From positions 1 through 25,111 of the IMG/VR virus record IMGVR_UViG_3300032246_002442: a stretch of DNA of 25,111 bases; one strand, written 5' to 3'. Under the pieces are notes generated by a model. The model saw nothing but the letters and a program-made list of their open reading frames with translations. It ran no database searches and was not told where the DNA came from. Source of the DNA: a virus. This document shows positions 2-20,524 of the stretch, in pieces (the first letter of the stretch is position 1; the number at the start of each line of letters is the position of its first letter). The translations under genes were made by a program, and so were the position numbers.

Positions 2-1450
2 AGGATCCTTTGCAACGGCTCGCAGACGGTCATGCCGCCGAGCCTCCACATCAGCGGGCGCCAATATACCTGGATTGAAGGGCGGAGCCCCGATGACCTG
101 CCGGTGGCCGATGCGCCGGAGTGGCTGTTGGCCATGGTGCGCCAGAACGGCCCGACTCCCAGTCACGCCGCACCGCTCACCGACGCCGAGCTGGTCACCG
201 AAGGCGGGCGCAACCAATACCTGACCAAAATGGCCGGATCGCTCCGGCGGATCGGAGCCACCGAGGCCACGATCCGGGCGGCCCTTTTGGCCGAGAACGA
301 AGCGAGGATCGAGCCGCCTTTGGAGATCGCCGAGGTCGAGGGAATCGTTCAATCGATCCGCCGCTACGAGCCCGACCCGCTCGCCACCGTCACGATGAAA
401 CTGCCAGGTGAGATTCCATCGGGTCCTGTTTCGCTTACCGATGATCCGTGGGGCGACCCGCTTCCCTGGTCCCGACTCGCCGCGATGCCCGACGACCAGC
501 GATGGATCTGGCAAGGTTTCCTCGCACGAAACCACGTGACGCTATTTTCCGCCGCACCGAAGACCGGGAAGACCACGCTAATCGCGGCGCTCCTTGGCGC
601 CCTTGGTAACGCCGATGAGTTTATCGGCCAACCAGTCAAGCGAGGCGCCAAAGTCCTTTACATCACAGAGGAACACGAGAGCCTTTGGCACGACCGGGCA
701 GCCGAAGTGGACGGAAAGGATAACGTGCACTTCTACTGCCAGAAGAACCAGGCACGAATGAACGAGGCCCAATGGATTGAGCGCCTCTCCTTCATCCGAA
801 AACGCATCGATGCCGAAGGCTATGACCTCGTGGTCTTCGACACACTCGCCAGCATCTGGGCCGCGAAGGACGAGAACGACGCCACCGGCGTACAGGCAAG
901 CCTCATGCCTCTCCGCACGCTTCCCTGTGCCGTGCTGATCGTCCACCACACCCGCAAGGCACAACATGGCGACACCGAAGACGGAAGCGCCGCCCGCGGC
1001 TCTTCGGCCCTTACCGGATTCGTGGACCTCATCCTTGAACTTAAACGATGGAAGGCCGGAGCAAGGCAGCGACTGCTTATTGCCAAAGGCCGATTCCCCT
1101 CCACGATCACACCCGAGGAATCGGTGATCGAGCGAACGCGTGACGACAAGTCCTACATCCTCATGGGCAACCGTGACGAGGTGAACCAGGCAGCCGAGAC
1201 CGAGCAGCTCCTGTCCGCCATCCCCTATGGCGAACCAGGCGCCACCGTCGAGGACATCAAGGAATTACTAAACGGCGAAGGGCCGACGCGAACCAAGTTG
1301 TTCGACCGGCTTAAAAAGCTCCACGCCGATAACGTTCTGGGCCGATCCGGCACCGGAAAAAAAGGATCTCCATTTTTGTTTTGGAGGATTAATGGCATGG
1401 GAATTGTTCCCAATGCCGTTTCTATCAAGTTTGAAAAAGACGTTTGTTAA
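2..1450 (+). CDS. Primase-polymerase / RepA-type helicase, 5'-truncated by window edge
   Basis: Replication protein that would prime and unwind phage DNA. The reading frame is open from base 2, and the residues before the first ATG (base 32) read ILCNGSQTV, followed by MPPSLHISGRQYTW. This resembles the end of a bifunctional primase-polymerase domain, so the ATG at 32 is probably internal and the true start lies left of the window. Numbering from that ATG, residues 52-113 resemble a PriCT_1 primase C-terminal domain (GGRNQYLTKMAGSLRR, PPLEIAEVEGI). Residues 155-380 form a RecA-like AAA_25/RepA ATPase, with Walker A AAPKTGKTT at 174-182, Walker B YDLVVFD at 264-270 and VLIVHHTRK at 301-309. 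Residues 390-450 look like a winged-helix tail. The stop lies just upstream of the next start. Domain calls are by eye. Confidence 0.85.
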   Translation, partial: RILCNGSQTVMPPSLHISGRQYTWIEGRSPDDLPVADAPEWLLAMVRQNGPTPSHAAPLTDAELVTEGGRNQYLTKMAGSLRRIGATEATIRAALLAENEARIEPPLEIAEVEGIVQSIRRYEPDPLATVTMKLPGEIPSGPVSLTDDPWGDPLPWSRLAAMPDDQRWIWQGFLARNHVTLFSAAPKTGKTTLIAALLGALGNADEFIGQPVKRGAKVLYITEEHESLWHDRAAEVDGKDNVHFYCQKNQARMNEAQWIERLSFIRKRIDAEGYDLVVFDTLASIWAAKDENDATGVQASLMPLRTLPCAVLIVHHTRKAQHGDTEDGSAARGSSALTGFVDLILELKRWKAGARQRLLIAKGRFPSTITPEESVIERTRDDKSYILMGNRDEVNQAAETEQLLSAIPYGEPGATVEDIKELLNGEGPTRTKLFDRLKKLHADNVLGRSGTGKKGSPFLFWRINGMGIVPNAVSIKFEKDVC

Positions 1451-2732: not shown

Positions 2733-3782
2733 ATGAGATTTGAGCCAGCGAAGATATTGCCAATGGTGGCCGCCTGTGCGGCAATCGCCGAAAAATCGAT
2801 GAAAGCCAAGGTTGTTGCCGTGCAGGGTAGCGCCGAGCTTTTCGGCGCAACCGATCAGGAGACGACGCTCCTTACTGCGGGCTTCGACCTGACGCAGGAT
2901 TGGGTGCTCGTCCCGGCCTCGAAGCTTTTGAGCGCGCTCAAATCGATTGGCAGCACCGAGGCAGATTGGGAGCTGTTGCCCGAGTCGGTCGTGATCACGG
3001 CAAAGGGTTTGCGGTACAGCCTGCCGCTTATGCCCAAGGGAGATTTCCCGCCGCTTAACGCTTTGGCCGGGGAGAATCCGGAATCCAGGAAAAGCTACCT
3101 GGTACAAGCCGCGCCGCTGATCGAGGCGGTCGAAACGGTGGCGCCGTGCGCGGCGTCGCAGGCCGCCAGATATACGATGACCGGGATTTCCCTGGAACAT
3201 GGCAAGGCGATTGCGACCGACGGGCGTAGGCTCGCCGTTGCCGATTATCCGATTGAAGGCGAGGACAAATTCTCCGCGGTGATTCCGGGGAAGCTTGGCC
3301 CGATTCTACGGAGCCTGTTTGGCGAGGCCGAATCCCTGACGCTTTCCGTTGGGACAAACAAGGTTCATTTCTTCGGGCCCGAGGCGATCCTGTCCACAGC
3401 CCAGATCGAGGGAAAGTTCCCCGACTGGTCCGCCATCATGCCCAGGATCATCGCGCACAAGATTACAACCAGCACGGCGGACCTGGTCGAGGCGATCCAG
3501 CGGGTTTCCTTTATGGCAGACGCTTTGGATAAAAAAGTGAGATTGAAACTGGAGCCGGGCCAACTCACCGCCACCGCCAAAACAACCGACGGCGAGGCCT
3601 TCGCTTCCATGGATTTCGCCTGGGACGACAAGCCGATCGAGATCGCCCTTAACGCCGCGTATCTGCTTCCGATGCTCAAATCAATTAAGGCCGAAGCCTT
3701 CACGCTGGGCATCAACGACCCAGGCAAACCGATCATCTTACAGGCCGAGGGATTCCAAGGTCTGCTGATGCCAATGTCGTAA
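2733..3782 (+). CDS. dnaN: DNA polymerase III beta sliding clamp (phage-encoded)
   Basis: Ring-shaped processivity clamp that tethers polymerases and other partners to DNA. The 349-residue length is close to the usual ~366 of bacterial beta, with three repeated domains of about 115 residues. Family signatures are visible: the mid-protein RYTMTGISLEHGKAIATDGR followed by RLAV, EGKFPDWSAIMP in domain 2, and ADLVEAIQRVSFMAD in domain 3. The C-terminus PMS matches the start of the conserved PMR/PMRL end but stops short of it. The start ATG follows TTAAGGAGCG at good spacing. It leads an operon of overlapping genes that includes two sigma-like proteins. A phage-owned clamp may serve replication and possibly, as in T4 gp45, late transcription; the second role is inference. 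Confidence 0.93.
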   Translation: MRFEPAKILPMVAACAAIAEKSMKAKVVAVQGSAELFGATDQETTLLTAGFDLTQDWVLVPASKLLSALKSIGSTEADWELLPESVVITAKGLRYSLPLMPKGDFPPLNALAGENPESRKSYLVQAAPLIEAVETVAPCAASQAARYTMTGISLEHGKAIATDGRRLAVADYPIEGEDKFSAVIPGKLGPILRSLFGEAESLTLSVGTNKVHFFGPEAILSTAQIEGKFPDWSAIMPRIIAHKITTSTADLVEAIQRVSFMADALDKKVRLKLEPGQLTATAKTTDGEAFASMDFAWDDKPIEIALNAAYLLPMLKSIKAEAFTLGINDPGKPIILQAEGFQGLLMPMS

Positions 3783-3850
3783 TGAGCATTCTTTTAATCG
3801 CCGTTACCTGTTGGGCCTGTTGCTGGCTGTTCGAGGAATTGGATGCCTGA
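3782..3850 (+). CDS. Possible 22-residue hydrophobic peptide
   Basis: A very short ORF whose ATG overlaps the clamp stop codon (TAATG at 3780-3784). Its TGA (3848-3850) overlaps the start of the next gene by eight bases. The product begins MSILLIAVTCWACCWLF and is hydrophobic with three cysteines, consistent with a single membrane-crossing segment. Its own Shine-Dalgarno site is weak, so it could only be made by translational coupling to the clamp. It may equally be a bridge that carries ribosomes to the next start, without a functional product. Confidence 0.35.
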   Translation: MSILLIAVTCWACCWLFEELDA

Positions 3851-4229
3851 TCTCGAAATCGTTCCCGCTCTCGGTCCCGGGGAAACCGGGCCGATCCTGA
3901 AACGCTTCGCCCGCGTTACGAATGGTCCATGGGCGATTGGCAGAGAAGATGGAGACCCGGGTGTCTACATCTTTCCCGAAGCCAATCCTGGTCAACCAAT
4001 CGCCTTTGTTTTTGATTCCGTGGCCAGAAATGCGAAATTTCTTGTGAACGCTTACGAGGATCAACGGCGATTACTCGCATCCGTTTTGCGCTACAAGGCA
4101 GCGTTTGCAACTTTGTCCAAACAGATTCGCGAGTCCGCACGCAGCGATGATGGAGAGGGCGAGCGAGGTTTCCTGGTCAAGGTTCCCGAGGCGCTGCTGT
4201 TTCAGATTGAGGAGTTTGGGAAATTATGA
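3843..4229 (+). CDS. Hypothetical protein in clamp/sigma operon
   Basis: A 128-residue soluble protein I do not recognise. The start ATG follows GAGGAATTG. The first ~60 residues look beta-rich (GPWAIGREDGDPGVYIF, PIAFVFDSV). Residues 62-110 look helical (KFLVNAYEDQRRLLASVLRY, FATLSKQIRESARS). There are no recognisable catalytic motifs. Its TGA overlaps the ATG of the downstream sigma factor (ATGA), so the two are translationally coupled and likely made together. Confidence 0.7.
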   Translation: MPDLEIVPALGPGETGPILKRFARVTNGPWAIGREDGDPGVYIFPEANPGQPIAFVFDSVARNAKFLVNAYEDQRRLLASVLRYKAAFATLSKQIRESARSDDGEGERGFLVKVPEALLFQIEEFGKL

Positions 4230-4831
4230 GTAAGGATATCTTTTTGCACCGGCAAAAGAAACAAGAGAAGAAATGCGAACCTCTGACGCCAGAACAGGCG
4301 CAGCTCGTCGCCGACAATGTGAAACTGGTGCCGTATCTGGTGGCGAAATTTAGCTCCGTGTTTCTGACCCACGAAGACGCGGTGGCTGAATGCAACTTTA
4401 TCCTGTGCCGGGTGGCTAAGGTTTATCGAGCCGAAACCGGATGGAAATTTTCCACAATTATGGCCGTTTCGTGGCGTCGGTACCTAGGCCGGATTTCCGC
4501 GGTCTATTCGGCAAAAAAAAATGGCTACCGAAATACGGGCGCATGGAGACAGACCAAAAACGATGAAGGAGAGGACCGGGATGAAGACATCGCCATGATC
4601 AATGATCCAACCAGGGCGCTCGAGCTGAGGGAAGAGCTGGAGATTCTGAAGCGGTTATTCCGCGGGCTTCCGCCGCGACACCGGCGGGTCCTAAAACTCC
4701 GTTACCAGGGTCACACACTTCAGGCAATTGGAGATCGGCTGAAGATTACGAGGGAGCGGGTTCGGCAAATTGAAGACAAGGCAAAGCAGGCACTAGCTTT
4801 GAGGTACCAGGCGATGACGAGGCAATCATGA
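4226..4831 (+). CDS. RNA polymerase sigma-70 family factor (regions 2 and 4)
   Basis: A 201-residue sigma-like protein that would redirect host RNA polymerase. Region 2-like helices span about residues 30-95 (NVKLVPYLVAKF, HEDAVAECNFILCRVAKVYR, GWKFSTIMAVSWRRYL). A charged linker follows (105-128). Region 4 spans about 142-195 (LPPRHRRVLKLRYQGHTLQA, RLKITRERVRQIEDKAKQAL) and has the classic helix-turn-helix for -35 recognition. Region 3 is missing or minimal, as in ECF-like and phage sigmas. It overlaps both neighbours by four bases (ATGA). Placed upstream of the late genes, it is a good candidate for a middle or late transcription switch. The sigma-family call is strong; the regulatory target is inference. 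Confidence 0.85.
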   Translation: MSKDIFLHRQKKQEKKCEPLTPEQAQLVADNVKLVPYLVAKFSSVFLTHEDAVAECNFILCRVAKVYRAETGWKFSTIMAVSWRRYLGRISAVYSAKKNGYRNTGAWRQTKNDEGEDRDEDIAMINDPTRALELREELEILKRLFRGLPPRHRRVLKLRYQGHTLQAIGDRLKITRERVRQIEDKAKQALALRYQAMTRQS

Positions 4832-5097
4832 CGCTAACCCTCCCACAGATTCAGAAACTTTTGGACGATCACAAGTGCGGTGTGCTGGTTTTCCCGTACC
4901 ACGGGATCGAACGGCTAAGCGCCCGGCACGCGGCGGCCAAACTGGGCTTTGAGCTGATCGCGGCGAGGCAGCGGATTACCAGACTTGAAGGAGCCATCAA
5001 GGCGCACAAGGCGAAGATGGCATCGCCCAATTACGCGGCGTGTCTGGACGATAACGCGGATTTATGGGAGATGGTCAACGATGATCGACTGGAGTGA
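4828..5097 (+). CDS. Small hypothetical protein, coiled-coil C-terminus
   Basis: An 89-residue protein whose ATG overlaps the sigma stop codon (ATGA). The N-terminal half contains LTLPQIQKLLDDHKCGVLVF. Residues 38-65 are helical and basic (AARQRITRLEGAIKAHKAK) and may form a short coiled coil. Function is not recognised. Its last codons overlap the start of the next gene by 17 bases, in keeping with the compact operon. Confidence 0.65.
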   Translation: MTLTLPQIQKLLDDHKCGVLVFPYHGIERLSARHAAAKLGFELIAARQRITRLEGAIKAHKAKMASPNYAACLDDNADLWEMVNDDRLE

Positions 5098-5401
5098 TGG
5101 CCTCGCCGTTATGGTTCGGCTCGCTGGTTTGCCCGAGCCCGTGCGCGAGTACCGGTTTCACTCCAAGCGAAAGTGGAGGATCGATCTGGCATGGCCTGAT
5201 CACAAACTTGCGGTCGAGGTAGAAGGCGGGGTCTGGAGCCGCGGTCGTCATGTGCGCCCCAAGGGTTTTCTGGGAGATCTGGAGAAGTATAATACCATAA
5301 ATCTAATGGGCTGGTCACTATTGCGCGTCACGCCAAAACAGGTCAGGACCGGTGAAGCGCTTACGCTGATCGAATTGTGGTTCAAAAAAGGAGCGAGCTG
5401 A
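5081..5401 (+). CDS. PD-(D/E)XK-type endonuclease domain protein
   Basis: A 106-residue nuclease-like protein. The core WRIDLAWPDHKLAVEVEGG (about residues 27-45) has the Asp followed by Glu-x-Glu arrangement of the PD-(D/E)XK fold. WSRGRHVRPKGFLGDLEKYN and GWSLLRVTP follow, a pattern seen in the DUF559/VSR-like single-domain endonucleases common in phages. I chose ATG 5081, preceded by GGGAG at 5066-5070. The frame is open further left to 4985, but that start would nest almost the whole upstream gene. Its stop overlaps the next ATG (TGATG). Likely roles are recombination or repair, or host DNA degradation; which one cannot be told from sequence. Confidence 0.75.
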   Translation: MIDWSDGLAVMVRLAGLPEPVREYRFHSKRKWRIDLAWPDHKLAVEVEGGVWSRGRHVRPKGFLGDLEKYNTINLMGWSLLRVTPKQVRTGEALTLIELWFKKGAS

Positions 5402-5886
5402 TGGCGCAACTAACACTTTTTGATATCCCTGAAGAGCCTGTCAAGCTCTCACGCCACATAGTCTGGCGGCGCCGCGTTGCCCGCATCATCCAGACCCAGG
5501 ATGACGGGCCTTTATTCTTTCGACGGGCGAGAGGCAGCGTCCTTACCGCCGAGGAACAGTCGTATCTTGAGGCGTACATTCCTTTGATTAAAGCAACCGC
5601 GCGACGGGCGCACCTGCGCGGGATTCGCATTGACGATTTGGAAGGCGAGCTGCTGGCATACGCCGCGCACATCATGCCCCAATTTGACCCGACCCGCGCC
5701 AAGCTGGGCTCGCTGCTTAGGGTGGCGCTCTCGAACAAGATCAAGAACATGATTCGCGATAGTGCCAAGAAGATTCGATACCGCACGGACCAGGGAGAAC
5801 GACTAGCGGAAATCGCGAGCGAGGACACGGCTGCCATTGACGCGGTCGATGAGCTGGATGAATTGGAAGCATGGGCGGCGGTGTAA
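5401..5886 (+). CDS. Region-2-only sigma-like protein with N-terminal clamp-binding motif
   Basis: A 161-residue protein whose start overlaps the nuclease stop and is preceded by AAAGGAGCGAGCTG. Residues 48-125 resemble sigma region 2: YLEAYIPLIKATARRAHLRG, IDDLEGELLAYAAHIMPQFD, then GSLLRVALSNKIKNMIRDS. No region 4 helix-turn-helix follows; the C-terminus is an acidic tail (DAVDELDELEAWAAV). The N-terminus MAQLTLFDIPEE contains QLTLF at residues 3-7, close to the bacterial beta-clamp binding pentapeptide QL[S/D]LF. The same operon encodes a clamp. The arrangement mirrors T4 gp55, a sigma without region 4 that binds the gp45 clamp for late transcription. The sigma resemblance is moderate and the clamp link is inferred from the motif. 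Confidence 0.65.
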   Translation: MAQLTLFDIPEEPVKLSRHIVWRRRVARIIQTQDDGPLFFRRARGSVLTAEEQSYLEAYIPLIKATARRAHLRGIRIDDLEGELLAYAAHIMPQFDPTRAKLGSLLRVALSNKIKNMIRDSAKKIRYRTDQGERLAEIASEDTAAIDAVDELDELEAWAAV

Positions 5887-5921: not shown

Positions 5922-5945
5922 GCAACATGTGATATCACATGTTGC
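5922..5945. promoter_or_regulatory. Perfect 24-bp palindrome, candidate operator upstream of late genes
   Basis: The half site GCAACATGTGAT is followed immediately by its exact reverse complement. There is no loop and no downstream T tract, which argues against a terminator. It lies in the 177-base spacer between the early/regulatory operon and the terminase genes, 118 bases before the TerS start. It is best read as a binding site for a dimeric regulator. AT-rich TAGCTATAGG further downstream (near 5966) could be a -10-like element, but this is weak. Confidence 0.6.
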
Positions 5946-6063
5946 GCTAAGCCCAGCGGGAGTTAGCTATAGGTAGAGGGGGCCATGGCGTGTCAGATTT
6001 GGCTGACCGACTTGGACCCATCGCGTGTTTTTGTGTGGCTTTTTGTGGAAAAAGGGCAAGCTT

Positions 6064-6495
6064 ATGAAGCGCGGGCGCCGCGTGTCACCGAAAACAGACG
6101 GAGCTCCGCTCCCGAGATCCTCGCCGCTGTTGTCGTCAGACGAAAATGTGTGCCTTGGTATCCTTGTTGCCGACCTTGACCGTACAGGGTGGGCTCAAGC
6201 CTGCGATCTTCAGGCCGTTTTGCTGGCGGCTCGCCGGATGGCCAGGGCTCAACAAATGGCCGCGCTGGTCAAGGCGTTGCCGAAGCTGACGGTTATCGGA
6301 GGTAATGGGCAGGAAATGTTACATCCGTTTATCGGTGAATGCCGGGCTGCTGAGCGCGATTTGGCGGATTCGCTTAGGGTGTTCAATCTCACACCTGGCG
6401 CTCGCAAATCTGCCCGAGGCGTGGCCCGCGAGGTCAAGCAGGCCATCGAGACCGACGACCCGCAAAAGGATAAGATCCTAAGGCTACTGGGCTGA
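6064..6495 (+). CDS. Terminase small subunit (P27-like)
   Basis: DNA-recognition subunit of the packaging motor. The 143 residues begin MKRGRRVSPKTDG, like many P27-family small terminases. Helices follow (LDRTGWAQACDLQAVLLAAR, ALVKALPKLTVIGGNGQEM, then a block centred on HPFIGECRAAERDL), and the family-like motif LRVFNLTPGARKSA lies near residues 110-123. I chose ATG 6064, behind AAAGGGCAAGCTT. An ATG at 6025 would add 13 hydrophobic residues that do not fit the family. It sits 19 bases upstream of TerL, the canonical order. As first gene of the late operon it is the probable target of the palindrome-containing spacer. Confidence 0.8.
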   Translation: MKRGRRVSPKTDGAPLPRSSPLLSSDENVCLGILVADLDRTGWAQACDLQAVLLAARRMARAQQMAALVKALPKLTVIGGNGQEMLHPFIGECRAAERDLADSLRVFNLTPGARKSARGVAREVKQAIETDDPQKDKILRLLG

Positions 6496-6514: not shown

Positions 6515-8041
6515 ATGAAGCCTTCCGCTGTTTTCGAATTATTTTGTAAATCGCTACTCTCCCACACGAAGGGCCCGCTCGGTGGTCAGCCGCTGACCCT
6601 CGATCGTTGGCAGATGCGCGACATCATCCGCCCGCTGCTTGATACGCGCCTTCCGGATGGCCGCCGCCAATATCGTCAGGCGCTGGTGATGCTCGGGCGC
6701 AAAAATGGCAAAACCACGCTGGCCTCGGCGCTTGCGCTTTATATGCTCTTTGCCGATCACGAGCCGGGCGCCGAAATTCTCTCCGCCGCCTGCGACTCCG
6801 ACCAGGCCGCCTTGGCCTTCGACATCGCGAAGAATATGGTGTTGCGGAGCCCGGAGCTCTCAAAGAAGTGCAAGGTCTACCGCAGACACATCGAGGCAAA
6901 CCGTGGAGCCGTTTACAAGGTGATTGCCGCCGACGCCGCTGGCAACCTCGGCCACAACATTTCCACGCTGATCTTCGACGAATTGCTTACGCAAAAGAAC
7001 CGGGACCTTTACGAAGCACTTGTCACCTCGATGGGCGCTCGCACCGAGCCGCTCGCTTTCATGATCAGCACCGCAGGCCATGACCGCGGGACGCTGCTGC
7101 ATGAATTGTATTCGTACGGAATCCAGGTTCGTGACGGCGTCGTCAGCGATCCAACTTTTTTACCGGTGATCTATGAAGCTCCACCTGAGATGGATTGGAA
7201 GAGCCCCGAGGCATGGAAAGCGGCGAATCCTGGACTAGGAAAATCCGTAACGCTCGAATATTTGAAAGACACCTGCCAAACGGCGCAGCACAATCCGGCC
7301 CGCGAGCAATCCTTCCGCCAATATCATCTCAACCAATGGGTGGAATCCGCCGCTCGCTGGATCGCCACCGAGTCGTGGAACTCCTGCGAATCGCGCCCGA
7401 CGAATCTGGAGGAGGTGCCTTGTTACGCGGCGCTCGACCTCTCCAGCCGCACCGACCTGACCAGCTTCACCCTGGCCTTCCCGCTGGCCGGAGCGATCCA
7501 TCTGAAATCTTTCGCCTGGACGACCTCGGCGATGGTGGCGAAACGCAACGACACCAACCGGATGAGATACGACCAGTTCGCCCGCAGCGGAAATCTGGAG
7601 ATTATCCCGGGCGAAATCATCGACTATGAGGTGGTCCTCAGGCGTATCGCCGAGATTTCCGAGGAATACAAGATAAGGGAGATCGCCGTCGACCCTTGGA
7701 ACGCCGAATTTTTGATGCAAAAACTCGAAAATCAGGGCTATGTTGTCCGCGAATTCCGTCAGGGATTCCGCTCGATGTCTCCGCCGACCAAGGATTTCGA
7801 GGCTGCGGTCCTGCAAAAGCAGATTTCACACGATGGAAATCCTCTTTTGAGGTGGTGTATCGACAATGTTGTCATCGAATTCGACGCCGCTGGCAACCAA
7901 AAGCCCTCCAAAAAGCGCTCCGTCGAGCGAATTGACGCCGCCGTCAGCGCGATTATGGCCTTCGCGCGGGCCCGCACCGCCGAGGCAACCGGGGTAAATG
8001 GAGAGAGTATCTACGAACTCCAGGGACTTGAGGTGTTTTAA
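6515..8041 (+). CDS. terL: Terminase large subunit
   Basis: ATP-driven packaging motor and nuclease, 508 residues, a normal length. The ATPase domain has Walker A GRKNGKTT (61-68) and Walker B TLIFDE (151-156). The nuclease domain has ALDLSSRTDLTSF (Asp 308), IREIAVDPWNAEF (Asp 393) and ERIDAAVSAIMA (Asp 474), matching the acidic triad of RNase H-like terminase nucleases of the Terminase_1 family. The start ATG has only a weak upstream purine tract. The stop TAA shares its last base with the portal ATG. All key residues appear intact. Confidence 0.95.
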   Translation: MKPSAVFELFCKSLLSHTKGPLGGQPLTLDRWQMRDIIRPLLDTRLPDGRRQYRQALVMLGRKNGKTTLASALALYMLFADHEPGAEILSAACDSDQAALAFDIAKNMVLRSPELSKKCKVYRRHIEANRGAVYKVIAADAAGNLGHNISTLIFDELLTQKNRDLYEALVTSMGARTEPLAFMISTAGHDRGTLLHELYSYGIQVRDGVVSDPTFLPVIYEAPPEMDWKSPEAWKAANPGLGKSVTLEYLKDTCQTAQHNPAREQSFRQYHLNQWVESAARWIATESWNSCESRPTNLEEVPCYAALDLSSRTDLTSFTLAFPLAGAIHLKSFAWTTSAMVAKRNDTNRMRYDQFARSGNLEIIPGEIIDYEVVLRRIAEISEEYKIREIAVDPWNAEFLMQKLENQGYVVREFRQGFRSMSPPTKDFEAAVLQKQISHDGNPLLRWCIDNVVIEFDAAGNQKPSKKRSVERIDAAVSAIMAFARARTAEATGVNGESIYELQGLEVF

Positions 8042-18319: not shown

Positions 18320-20161
18320 ATGGCCTACATCACCGCGGATCGCATTAGGGAATCTACGGAAGTCGTTGGCTCCGATGTTATCGTTTTGCTCGGCGCCGCC
18401 AATAGTTTCCTTCCGTTTTCGTCGGCTATGGCGATTGGCGATCGTTGCACTTATACCATTGTCGCGCGCGTGGGAAACGATTGGGAAAGCGGGATCGCCA
18501 CCTATTCTGCTGTTGGCACGCTGACCAGGACGCAGGTGAGGAAGAGCTCCAACAACAACCAGCGGGTGGCATTCACCGCTGGCGCCAAAGATGTTTTCAT
18601 GGGTCCAACAAGTTGGAATATGCCAGCGTTTGACCCGATTACCAATGCGATCACGGGCGCCAACTGGGGAGGCTCGCCGATTCCTGTCACGAGCGGTGGT
18701 ACCGGAGCGACAGCTGCTTCCGAGGCAAGAGCTAATTTGGGTCTGGTGATTGGCACGGATGTGCTGGCTCCCAATGGGTCAGCGGCATCATTAACGAACT
18801 TCCCTACGCTGAATCAAAACACTACTGGAACTGCTGCGAATGTTACCGGCATTGTCGCTGTTGCTAATGGCGGAACTGGCGTCACCGCTAGCACGGGCAC
18901 CGGGTCTGTTGTTCTGTCCAATAGTCCAACTCTGACATCTCCCAATTTCCCCGGTGATTTGACTTGTAATAGCATCTATCCTGCTGATGTCCGTGCAGGT
19001 GGGAATGCCGCGACCGCCACATGGAAAGCCAGCCTCAACGCCATGGGCACCGGTGACCTGATCCTCGCATCTTCTGGCTCTGTGGGTTTCGCATCCGTCG
19101 CTGGCCCAGCGGATTTGCGGAATTCAATTGATACAATGCTACTCCGGGATTCCGCAAACGCTCTGGCCCAGCGGTTCGGATCGACTGCCCAGTCTTTCCG
19201 GGTCTACAATAGCTTCAGCGATTCCGCCAATTACGAGCGATTTGGTATCACATGGGAAGGCAATATTTGTACGCTCGGACTTGCGCAAGCAGGAACCGGA
19301 GCAACAAGATCTTTGATGGTCACAGGGGCGAACGCCACAACCGGAGCTGGTGGCAATGTCACCATTGCGGCGGGCAATGGCTCCGGTGTGGGTGCTGGTG
19401 GGAATATTATTCTGCAACCGGGAGCGCAGGGAAGTAGTGGTGGGAATGGTTGGGTTAAATTTTATGATGTTACTGGTGCAAATACTCGTATGGGGGCATG
19501 GAATAATAGTACACAAGGGTATGGATTTGGTTGGGATACACAAAATAATGGGACATTGGGGACCGGGCTTGTATCTAGCTCTGTCAATGGAACAGGATAT
19601 ATTGGAGTAAAAAGTCAAACATCAAATCACTTTATGATTGAGACCAATAATGGGATTACTGCGCTTTTAACTAACTCGGCAAACACCCAATCTAGGTTGA
19701 TTTTTGTAAACGGAAATAATGCTCAGACAACTTCAGGCTCTGCGGGTATTTGCTCGTACACTACTGGCGTGATCACGATCCGTGATGGTGGTACTTCTAT
19801 TGCTGGCGGTTCTTTTTCCTTCCCATCATCAACCACCGCCTTCTCTGCCAACACAAATGATCTTGCCCTTATTGCTTCAGCTTTTCAGCGCATTAACTGC
19901 ACATCAGCAGCTAGTCTGACAGGCATCGCTCCTCCATCTGGTGGAACCCATGCCGATGGCCGTATGATCCGCATCTACAATGTCGGCACGACCAACCTAA
20001 CGCTTGCTCACAATAGCGCATCATCCACAGCAGCAAATAGGATGTTTAGTTCAACAGGCGCTGACATCGTCATCGTCCCCAACCAATCCTGCGAATTGAT
20101 CTACGATTCAACCAACAACGGCAGCGGCGCCGCTGGCTGGCGTGTTTCGGCTGCCCGATAA
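18320..20161 (+). CDS. Tail fibre / receptor-binding protein
   Basis: A 613-residue protein at the end of the tail module. Residues 1-115 form a conserved-looking attachment domain (ADRIRESTEVVGSDVIVLLG, TLTRTQVRKSSNNNQRVAF). GGTGATAASEARANLGL at about 128-144 and ANGGTGVTAS later are the GGTG fibre motifs common in phage tail fibres. Residues 330-375 carry Gly-rich repeats (GAGGNVTIAAGNGSG, GAGGNIILQPGAQGSSGGNG) that suggest a beta-helix or trimeric shaft. The C-terminus (RMIRIYNVGTTNLTLAHN, then CELIYDSTNNGSGAAGW) looks like a folded tip. Bases about 19440-19740 are clearly more AT-rich than the flanks, suggesting acquired sequence in the binding part. Confidence 0.85.
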   Translation: MAYITADRIRESTEVVGSDVIVLLGAANSFLPFSSAMAIGDRCTYTIVARVGNDWESGIATYSAVGTLTRTQVRKSSNNNQRVAFTAGAKDVFMGPTSWNMPAFDPITNAITGANWGGSPIPVTSGGTGATAASEARANLGLVIGTDVLAPNGSAASLTNFPTLNQNTTGTAANVTGIVAVANGGTGVTASTGTGSVVLSNSPTLTSPNFPGDLTCNSIYPADVRAGGNAATATWKASLNAMGTGDLILASSGSVGFASVAGPADLRNSIDTMLLRDSANALAQRFGSTAQSFRVYNSFSDSANYERFGITWEGNICTLGLAQAGTGATRSLMVTGANATTGAGGNVTIAAGNGSGVGAGGNIILQPGAQGSSGGNGWVKFYDVTGANTRMGAWNNSTQGYGFGWDTQNNGTLGTGLVSSSVNGTGYIGVKSQTSNHFMIETNNGITALLTNSANTQSRLIFVNGNNAQTTSGSAGICSYTTGVITIRDGGTSIAGGSFSFPSSTTAFSANTNDLALIASAFQRINCTSAASLTGIAPPSGGTHADGRMIRIYNVGTTNLTLAHNSASSTAANRMFSSTGADIVIVPNQSCELIYDSTNNGSGAAGWRVSAAR

Positions 20162-20176
20162 TTAAGGAGCTTTCTA

Positions 20177-20524
20177 ATGGCTGATGATGTACCAGTTCCC
20201 GTTTTCCCTGAAATCCCGGCCACCAAGCCGACGGTGGTGCCTCCGACAAGCGGAGCGACCTATGACCAATGGTTTTTTACCGGGACGCGAATTAGCTGGA
20301 TGGGCGGGCAGACCTATGACCTGGAATCGTACTGGGCCAAAGGCAACGCCGTTGCGTTGAACGGCGAGACCACCAACAACATCATCCGGAATTTTGTGGA
20401 TCTGGAATCTCTGAAACAGCAATTGGGCCAGGAATTCCTCGATGCCAACCCGGATGTGGTGGAGATCATGCCGCATTTCCTCCAGGTGATGGCGAAAATA
20501 GCGAAACGGCAAGGAGTGCTGTAA
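20177..20524 (+). CDS. Hypothetical protein after tail fibre
   Basis: A 115-residue protein with start ATG after AAGGAGCTTTCTA. The N-terminus is Pro/Val-rich and extended (VPVPVFPEIPATKPTVVPPT). Then come aromatic segments (YDQWFFTGTRISWMGG) and a helical C-terminus (VDLESLKQQLGQEFLDANPD, MPHFLQVMAKIAKRQG). It may be a fibre chaperone or a small tail accessory protein. No family is recognised. Confidence 0.65.
   Translation: MADDVPVPVFPEIPATKPTVVPPTSGATYDQWFFTGTRISWMGGQTYDLESYWAKGNAVALNGETTNNIIRNFVDLESLKQQLGQEFLDANPDVVEIMPHFLQVMAKIAKRQGVL

Follow-up and report, generated by a model that had tools for sequence, protein, structure and literature searches.

We characterized a gene block in a 25,111-bp virus contig (IMG/VR record IMGVR_UViG_3300032246_002442; the whole of this stretch is called the window), in which 35 open reading frames (ORFs) were considered. 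The block runs from a bacterial-type (DnaN-type) sliding clamp (P0002) through a complete sigma factor (P0003) to P0001, a protein with a sigma region 2 domain, no region 4 and an N-terminal QLTLF motif of the kind found in bacterial clamp ligands, and it ends just before the terminase genes (Table 1). P0001 and its possible role in tethering transcription to the clamp are the subject of this analysis. The comparison covers the relatives of P0001 that were found (n = 4; L001, L002, L003/G003 and L004/G004) and sister phages (G007, G008, G009 and G012).

Gene order from the clamp to the terminase

P0001 was read from the ATG at 5401, which overlaps the stop codon of the preceding gene (TGATG); this overlap and the AGGAG upstream support MAQLTLFD well as the true N-terminus, as an earlier note on this DNA had read it. 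The clamp gene is also what that note had taken it for—a DnaN-type sliding clamp with matches to phrog_947 (E = 5e-58) and to clamp domains 2 and 3, the match to domain 1 being weak (E = 0.029). The claim that the clamp heads the same overlapping operon as P0001 holds for the identity of the clamp but not for the overlap: every gene within 3843–5886 overlaps its neighbour, and a 60-bp gap separates the clamp from that block. P0003, which lies between the clamp and P0001, was absent from the earlier account. The nuclease-like gene preceding P0001 is also carried by the sister phages, and structural genes come after the terminase.

Table 1. Features of the window from the primase-helicase to the large terminase subunit.
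Feature	Position	Strand	Matches and remarks
Primase-helicase	32–1450		PriCT-1 and AAA_25 domains
Two genes between primase-helicase and clamp	1444–2076, 2142–2561
DnaN-type sliding clamp P0002, 349 aa	2733–3782	+	phrog_947, PF02768/PF02767
Conserved cassette gene, function unassigned, 128 aa	3843–4229	+	58% identity in relatives
Complete sigma factor P0003, 201 aa	4226–4831	+	Regions 2 and 4
Small conserved gene, function unassigned, 89 aa	4828–5097	+	84–86% identity in relatives
Small nuclease-like protein, 106 aa	5081–5401	+	phrog_503, E = 1.8e-34; weak match to MTES_1575 endonuclease
Ribosome-binding site AGGAG	5389–5393	+	7 nt 5′ of ATG 5401
Sigma-region-2-only protein P0001, 161 aa	5401–5886	+
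Codons for QLTLF, P0001 residues 3–7	5407–5421	+	QLTFF in four relatives
Sigma region 2 domain, P0001 residues ~47–122	5539–5766	+
Acidic C-terminal tail, P0001 residues 133–161 (...DAVDELDELEAWAAV)	5797–5883	+
Perfect 22-bp palindrome CAACATGTGATATCACATGTTG	5923–5944	.	Between P0001 and the small terminase subunit gene (terS)
Probable cohesive-end (cos) site	6008–6017	.	Coincident contig ends
Terminase small subunit, first late gene	6064–6495	+	PF05119, E = 2e-4; start 6064 likely from relatives
Terminase large subunit	6515–8041	+	PF20441, E = 4e-50; PF03354, E = 3e-26

The sigma domain and N-terminal motif of P0001

Profile and structure comparisons both identify a sigma region 2 domain in P0001. 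The Pfam profile Sigma70_r2 matched it with E = 4e-4 (20.4 bits; cut-off 24) and matched all five family members (best, 2.3e-4), and NCBIfam TIGR02937, which covers the sigma-70/extracytoplasmic function (ECF) superfamily, matched with E = 4.6e-6 (best family member, 1.6e-6), a score under its curated cut-off, which the lack of region 4 leads one to expect. A further profile, compiled from E. coli RpoD and RpoE, the P0003 family and sigma-like proteins of Rhizobium phages and from no other sequences, picked up P0001 residues 46–131; two neighbouring control proteins gave noise. An AlphaFold2 model based on an alignment of P0001 with sigma-2 fragments of the same phages had a core confidence (predicted local distance difference test (pLDDT)) of about 62–78 and showed the region 2 fold that the earlier note had expected, the best match being domain 2 of SigE (8b3z; Z 9.9, 2.2 Å over 76 residues); among the structural matches listed, 50 of 50 were sigma factors. 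AlphaFold2 with the five-member alignment alone was uninformative (pLDDT 40), and a sequence search of solved structures with P0001 returned chance-level matches only. No family member matched region 4 in Pfam, PHROGs or NCBIfam, and residues 133–161 form an acidic tail that is largely kept in the relatives, both in line with the first description of the protein.

P0001 shares with sigma-70 and ECF factors the fold of regions 2.1–2.3 and the acidic signature of core binding, but it lacks region 4, its region 2.3 aromatics are replaced and its scores fall under the curated cut-offs. In sigma70, the set of residues that includes D403 and E407 (region 2.2) contacts the beta-prime clamp helices of RNA polymerase, and the aromatic residues of region 2.3 open the −10 element. 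D403 and E407 align with D79 and E83 of P0001, and F427, Y430, W433 and W434 of region 2.3 with L102, L105, V108 and A109. Because the acidic pair is kept and the aromatics are replaced, P0001 looks, from its sequence, like a core-binding domain that has no obvious means of melting DNA in the way sigma factors usually do; with neither region 4 nor these aromatics, it falls outside what defines a full promoter-specific sigma factor.

Known clamp ligands follow the pattern Q-phi-x-[L/M]-[F/L], with QLxLF the strongest form and acidic flanks frequent, and in Hda the motif lies within a disordered N-terminus (PMC11139829). Residues 3–7 of P0001 read QLTLF, a canonical motif, and are followed by DIPEE, in an N-terminus that is predicted to be disordered or modelled with low confidence. 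This is the sole QLxLF among the ORFs of the window: shuffling all 35 gave an expectation of 0.08 per proteome, or 0.003 when only termini were counted, and shuffles of P0001 alone placed QLxLF in the first 11 residues at a frequency of 6e-5. The acidic tail of P0001 contained no clamp-motif pattern. P0001 resembles bacterial beta-clamp ligands such as Hda (PMC11139829) in its terminal Q-L-x-L-F with an acidic flank, and differs from them in that the motif is joined to a sigma-2 domain and that position 4 is Phe in the relatives.

Conservation of QLxLF in homologues, a check that the earlier note had set, did not hold to the letter: 4/4 relatives begin MAQLTFFD and so read QLTFF, keeping Q, L, T and the final F (candidate clamp-ligand peptides of the family, MAQLTLFDIPEEP and MAQLTFFDIPEEP). 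P0001 is 83–85% identical to the four relatives over the alignment, and within codons 1–13 we counted six silent differences and one replacement, at motif position 4. This excess of synonymous over non-synonymous differences indicates that residues 1–13 are constrained by purifying selection.

The candidate receptor for this motif, the phage clamp, is 24–26% identical to E. coli DnaN overall and identical at 10–11 of the 19 pocket positions checked (T172, G174, R176, L177, P242, N320, Y323, M362, P363 and M364 are kept), with conservative changes at L155M, V247I and V360L; judged by these residues, the peptide-binding pocket is largely kept. No DNA polymerase was recognized in G003, a contig apparently spanning cohesive end to cohesive end, and the phages of this clade therefore probably combine a clamp of their own with the replicase of the host, and loading of this clamp would rely on host machinery during replication. 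P0001 might target the host or phage clamp to affect replication—for example by polymerase exchange or by blocking host replication—and its sigma-2-like fold might then serve to bind DNA or protein outside transcription. The fit of the motif to host-type clamp ligands, the nearness of the gene to replication genes and the presence of clamp-motif candidates near phage DnaN on nucleases as well (QLRLF in the RecB-like proteins of 16-3 and RHph) would agree with such a role, but the sigma-specific profile matches, the retained acidic residues of the beta-prime contact and the position beside the late operon would not, and we regard it as decidedly unlikely.

Co-occurrence, genome position and the complete sigma factor

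The clamp and P0001 are jointly present in the window, G001, G003 and G004 and both absent from the sister phages G007, G008, G009 and G012, the terminase of which is about 82% identical; G002 is a short contig that starts downstream of the clamp. Sister phages have a different small protein in the place that follows the nuclease gene. G009, which appears complete because its ends repeat each other, carries P0003 without the clamp or P0001.

Contigs from several metagenomes (L012, L013, L015, L021 and L022) begin within a few bases of one point upstream of terS, and the G003 contig stops about 10 nt before that point. These coincident ends suggest a cohesive-end site at about 6008–6017, probably with an overhang of about 10 nt. 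P0001 would therefore lie furthest to the right in the linear genome, with terS at the left end, and after circularization no other gene would separate it from the late operon; this is a late-regulator position like that of lambda Q. The lambda Q gene likewise sits immediately ahead of cos and the late operon; Q itself belongs to a different protein family and has no clamp motif. This shared position, together with a sigma-2 fold that could perhaps bind core without the melting residues and the different small protein that occupies this place in the sister phages, is what one would expect if P0001 were a Q-like late regulator that alters elongation or termination at or after the late promoter, with clamp binding secondary or absent. 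Such a regulator is unlikely, given that P0001 shows no likeness to known antiterminators in Pfam, NCBIfam or PHROGs and that the N-terminal clamp motif and the link to the clamp gene would be left unexplained.

Around the cos region, a conserved block, (C)TGACCGAC...TTTTT, is present in the sister phages too. The palindrome CAACATGTGATATCACATGTTG, a possible operator, has an imperfect copy at G003 28571 and is absent from L001, L002 and G004. We weighed an AT-rich block upstream of terS in the relatives, TTTATTAAATTTGC, as a late-promoter candidate; it goes with the P0003 type that the relatives carry but is present a single time in each genome, and the conserved block adjoining it is better explained by the cohesive-end site. 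Sigma-70-like promoters in the window showed no excess over chance, and no RNA families were found.

P0003 has both promoter-contact regions of a sigma factor: region 2 with GWKFST...W and region 4 with ITRERVRQIE (PF04545, E = 2e-14), and a match to phrog_351 (E = 1.5e-19); its family profile matched SigA structures in two stretches, corresponding to regions 2 and 4 (E = 3.5e-19). It shares 45% identity with its syntenic counterpart in the sister phage G009 and only 28–29% with that in the relatives, unlike the clamp (77%) and P0001 (85%) on either side of it, and was thus probably exchanged while its neighbours stayed. The apparent swap is between the window and L001, L003 and L004, the large terminases of which are 95–97% identical, and the relatives' version has an additional C-terminal helix-turn-helix-like stretch. 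For promoter recognition, P0003 is the likelier candidate of the two sigma-like proteins. It might even act alone as the late (or middle) sigma factor, in which case P0001 would be an accessory RNA-polymerase- or DNA-binding protein that does not bind the clamp, and the clamp would serve replication only. The two regions of P0003 and their SigA matches, the missing melting aromatics of P0001, the off-consensus QLTFF of all relatives and the precedent of Rhizobium phages 16-3 and RHph_TM3, which have a clamp and sigma-like genes without a clamp motif, all suit this alternative. It sits less easily with a terminal QLxLF that is improbable by chance (0.003 per proteome), with the purifying selection on the N-terminal segment and with the observation that P0001 tracks the presence and absence of the clamp and P0003 does not (as in G009); we consider it less likely than not, though nearly as probable as clamp tethering by P0001.

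Possible clamp-tethered late transcription and its parallels

Taking these features together, we consider it plausible that P0001 mediates clamp-tethered late transcription as an adaptor that would resemble T4 gp55 in its working. As part of a cassette for late-gene control, P0001 would most likely dock with its sigma-2 domain on the beta-prime clamp helices of the host RNA polymerase, and most likely with its N-terminal QLT[L/F]F in a sliding clamp's peptide pocket, that of the phage DnaN first. RNA polymerase would thereby be tethered to clamps remaining on replicating phage DNA, so that the late operon just downstream, across the probable cos site, would be read best once replication begins, with promoter choice probably made by P0003, not P0001.

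The parallel with T4 is one of principle. In T4 late transcription, gp55 and gp33 tether the polymerase to the gp45 clamp (PMC2988020, PMC7892883). P0001 and gp55 have in common a sigma domain 2 without region 4, a short clamp tag, a phage clamp and a proposed role in late-gene expression, but P0001 carries its tag, of the bacterial QLxLF type, at the N-terminus, whereas the clamp-binding motif of gp55 is C-terminal; furthermore, the clamp of the window is DnaN-type and not gp45, TATAAATA promoters are missing from the window, and a complete sigma factor lies beside P0001. The gp55 family was not named among the PHROG and Pfam matches of P0001 (a sigma-like factor of the T4-like Klebsiella phage KPV15 appeared at weak E in the viral fold list), and the absence of gp55 itself from the structural matches listed is uninformative either way. 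No gp33 occurred among the family matches of neighbouring genes, although no search aimed at gp33 was made. P0001 would accordingly resemble gp55 in how it works, and tag position, clamp type and promoters appear to place it outside the gp55 family.

Clamp-coupled late transcription had been put forward in the earlier note, and the evidence for it is divided. In its favour are the sigma-2 fold, the absence of region 4, the motif, the clamp pocket, the co-occurrence with the clamp and the position before the late genes. Several points weigh against it. The Phe at position 4 in the relatives is the main weakness of clamp binding: QLTFF in all four lies outside Q-phi-x-[L/M]-[F/L], Leu and Met are the only residues known there in natural ligands, and a Phe-substituted E. 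coli clamp peptide inhibited less (PMC11139829). The hydrophobic subsite of the pocket is the same in the window and the relatives, so that no pocket change compensates for QLTFF, and H175R, R246A and R365S alter the charge or charge pattern of the pocket. The P0001 model is of moderate quality, with a core pLDDT of about 70, and is not independent of homology, since the alignment behind it contained sigma sequences. P0001 lacks the aromatic promoter-melting residues of region 2.3, and the complete sigma factor P0003 in the same gene block is better placed for promoter recognition. The four relatives are near-identical to one another and thus represent about two lineages only, and the joint presence or absence of clamp and P0001 amounts to one or few events. 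Finally, T4-type late promoters (TATAAATA) had no exact match in the window and three one-mismatch matches versus 4.3 expected. With a motif that departs from the consensus in the relatives, a narrow family and bindings that are predicted, we give clamp-tethered late transcription by P0001 about one chance in three.

The wider proposal, slightly more tentative, is that a small temperate phage lacking a DNA polymerase of its own ties late transcription to replication by means of a clamp of bacterial type and a sigma-2 adaptor with an N-terminal QLxLF-type tag, a separate complete sigma factor choosing the promoters—an independent invention of the gp55/gp45 principle. If true, a second, unrelated version would have arisen from a host-type clamp and an ordinary docking peptide, implying that the principle evolves repeatedly; the system would be minimal and testable with standard E. 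coli proteins, and it would offer an explanation for the DnaN that some temperate phages keep despite depending on the host replicase. A tyrosine integrase gene (PF00589) in G003 indicates that the phage is probably temperate; near it lies a homologue of CsrA (L034 5047–5250, equal to G003 20047–20250; PF02599, E = 2e-19).

The P0001 family is narrow, as all scans returned the same four relatives: none beyond these were found in viral contigs with the protein, the family alignment, the neighbouring nuclease or a degenerate N-terminal DNA pattern, nor in genome contigs, a phage collection (one chance-level match) or a plasmid collection. Scans with P0003 and with the clamp alignment gave nothing new, and a scan of genome contigs with the large terminase alignment found no host. 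In the open literature, a coverage that excludes most subscription papers, we found no description of a clamp-linked sigma factor outside T4-related phages. A comparable arrangement is that of Rhizobium phages 16-3, AP-16-3 and RHph_TM3_3_14B (loci L042 (6776–11201), L043 and L045), in which a DnaN-type clamp is followed a few genes downstream by one or two sigma-like genes. Their sigma-like proteins differ from P0001 in that they have region 4 as well as region 2 and lack a clamp motif; it is the RecB-like nuclease of 16-3 (p085, residue 61) and RHph that carries QLRLF. The product of 16-3 p086, annotated as a pseudouridylate synthase, looks sigma-like. None of the sigma-like neighbours of DnaN-type clamps checked in other phages had a clamp motif, and the link between sigma-2 and a clamp motif was seen in this clade only. 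Phage clamps with motif-bearing partners may nevertheless be commoner than described. In a gut record (L047 1763–3215; MT839543), a DnaN-like clamp is followed by a 130-aa protein, which we take to resemble PcfK, that ends in LQFSLFEGL, a C-terminal clamp-motif candidate.

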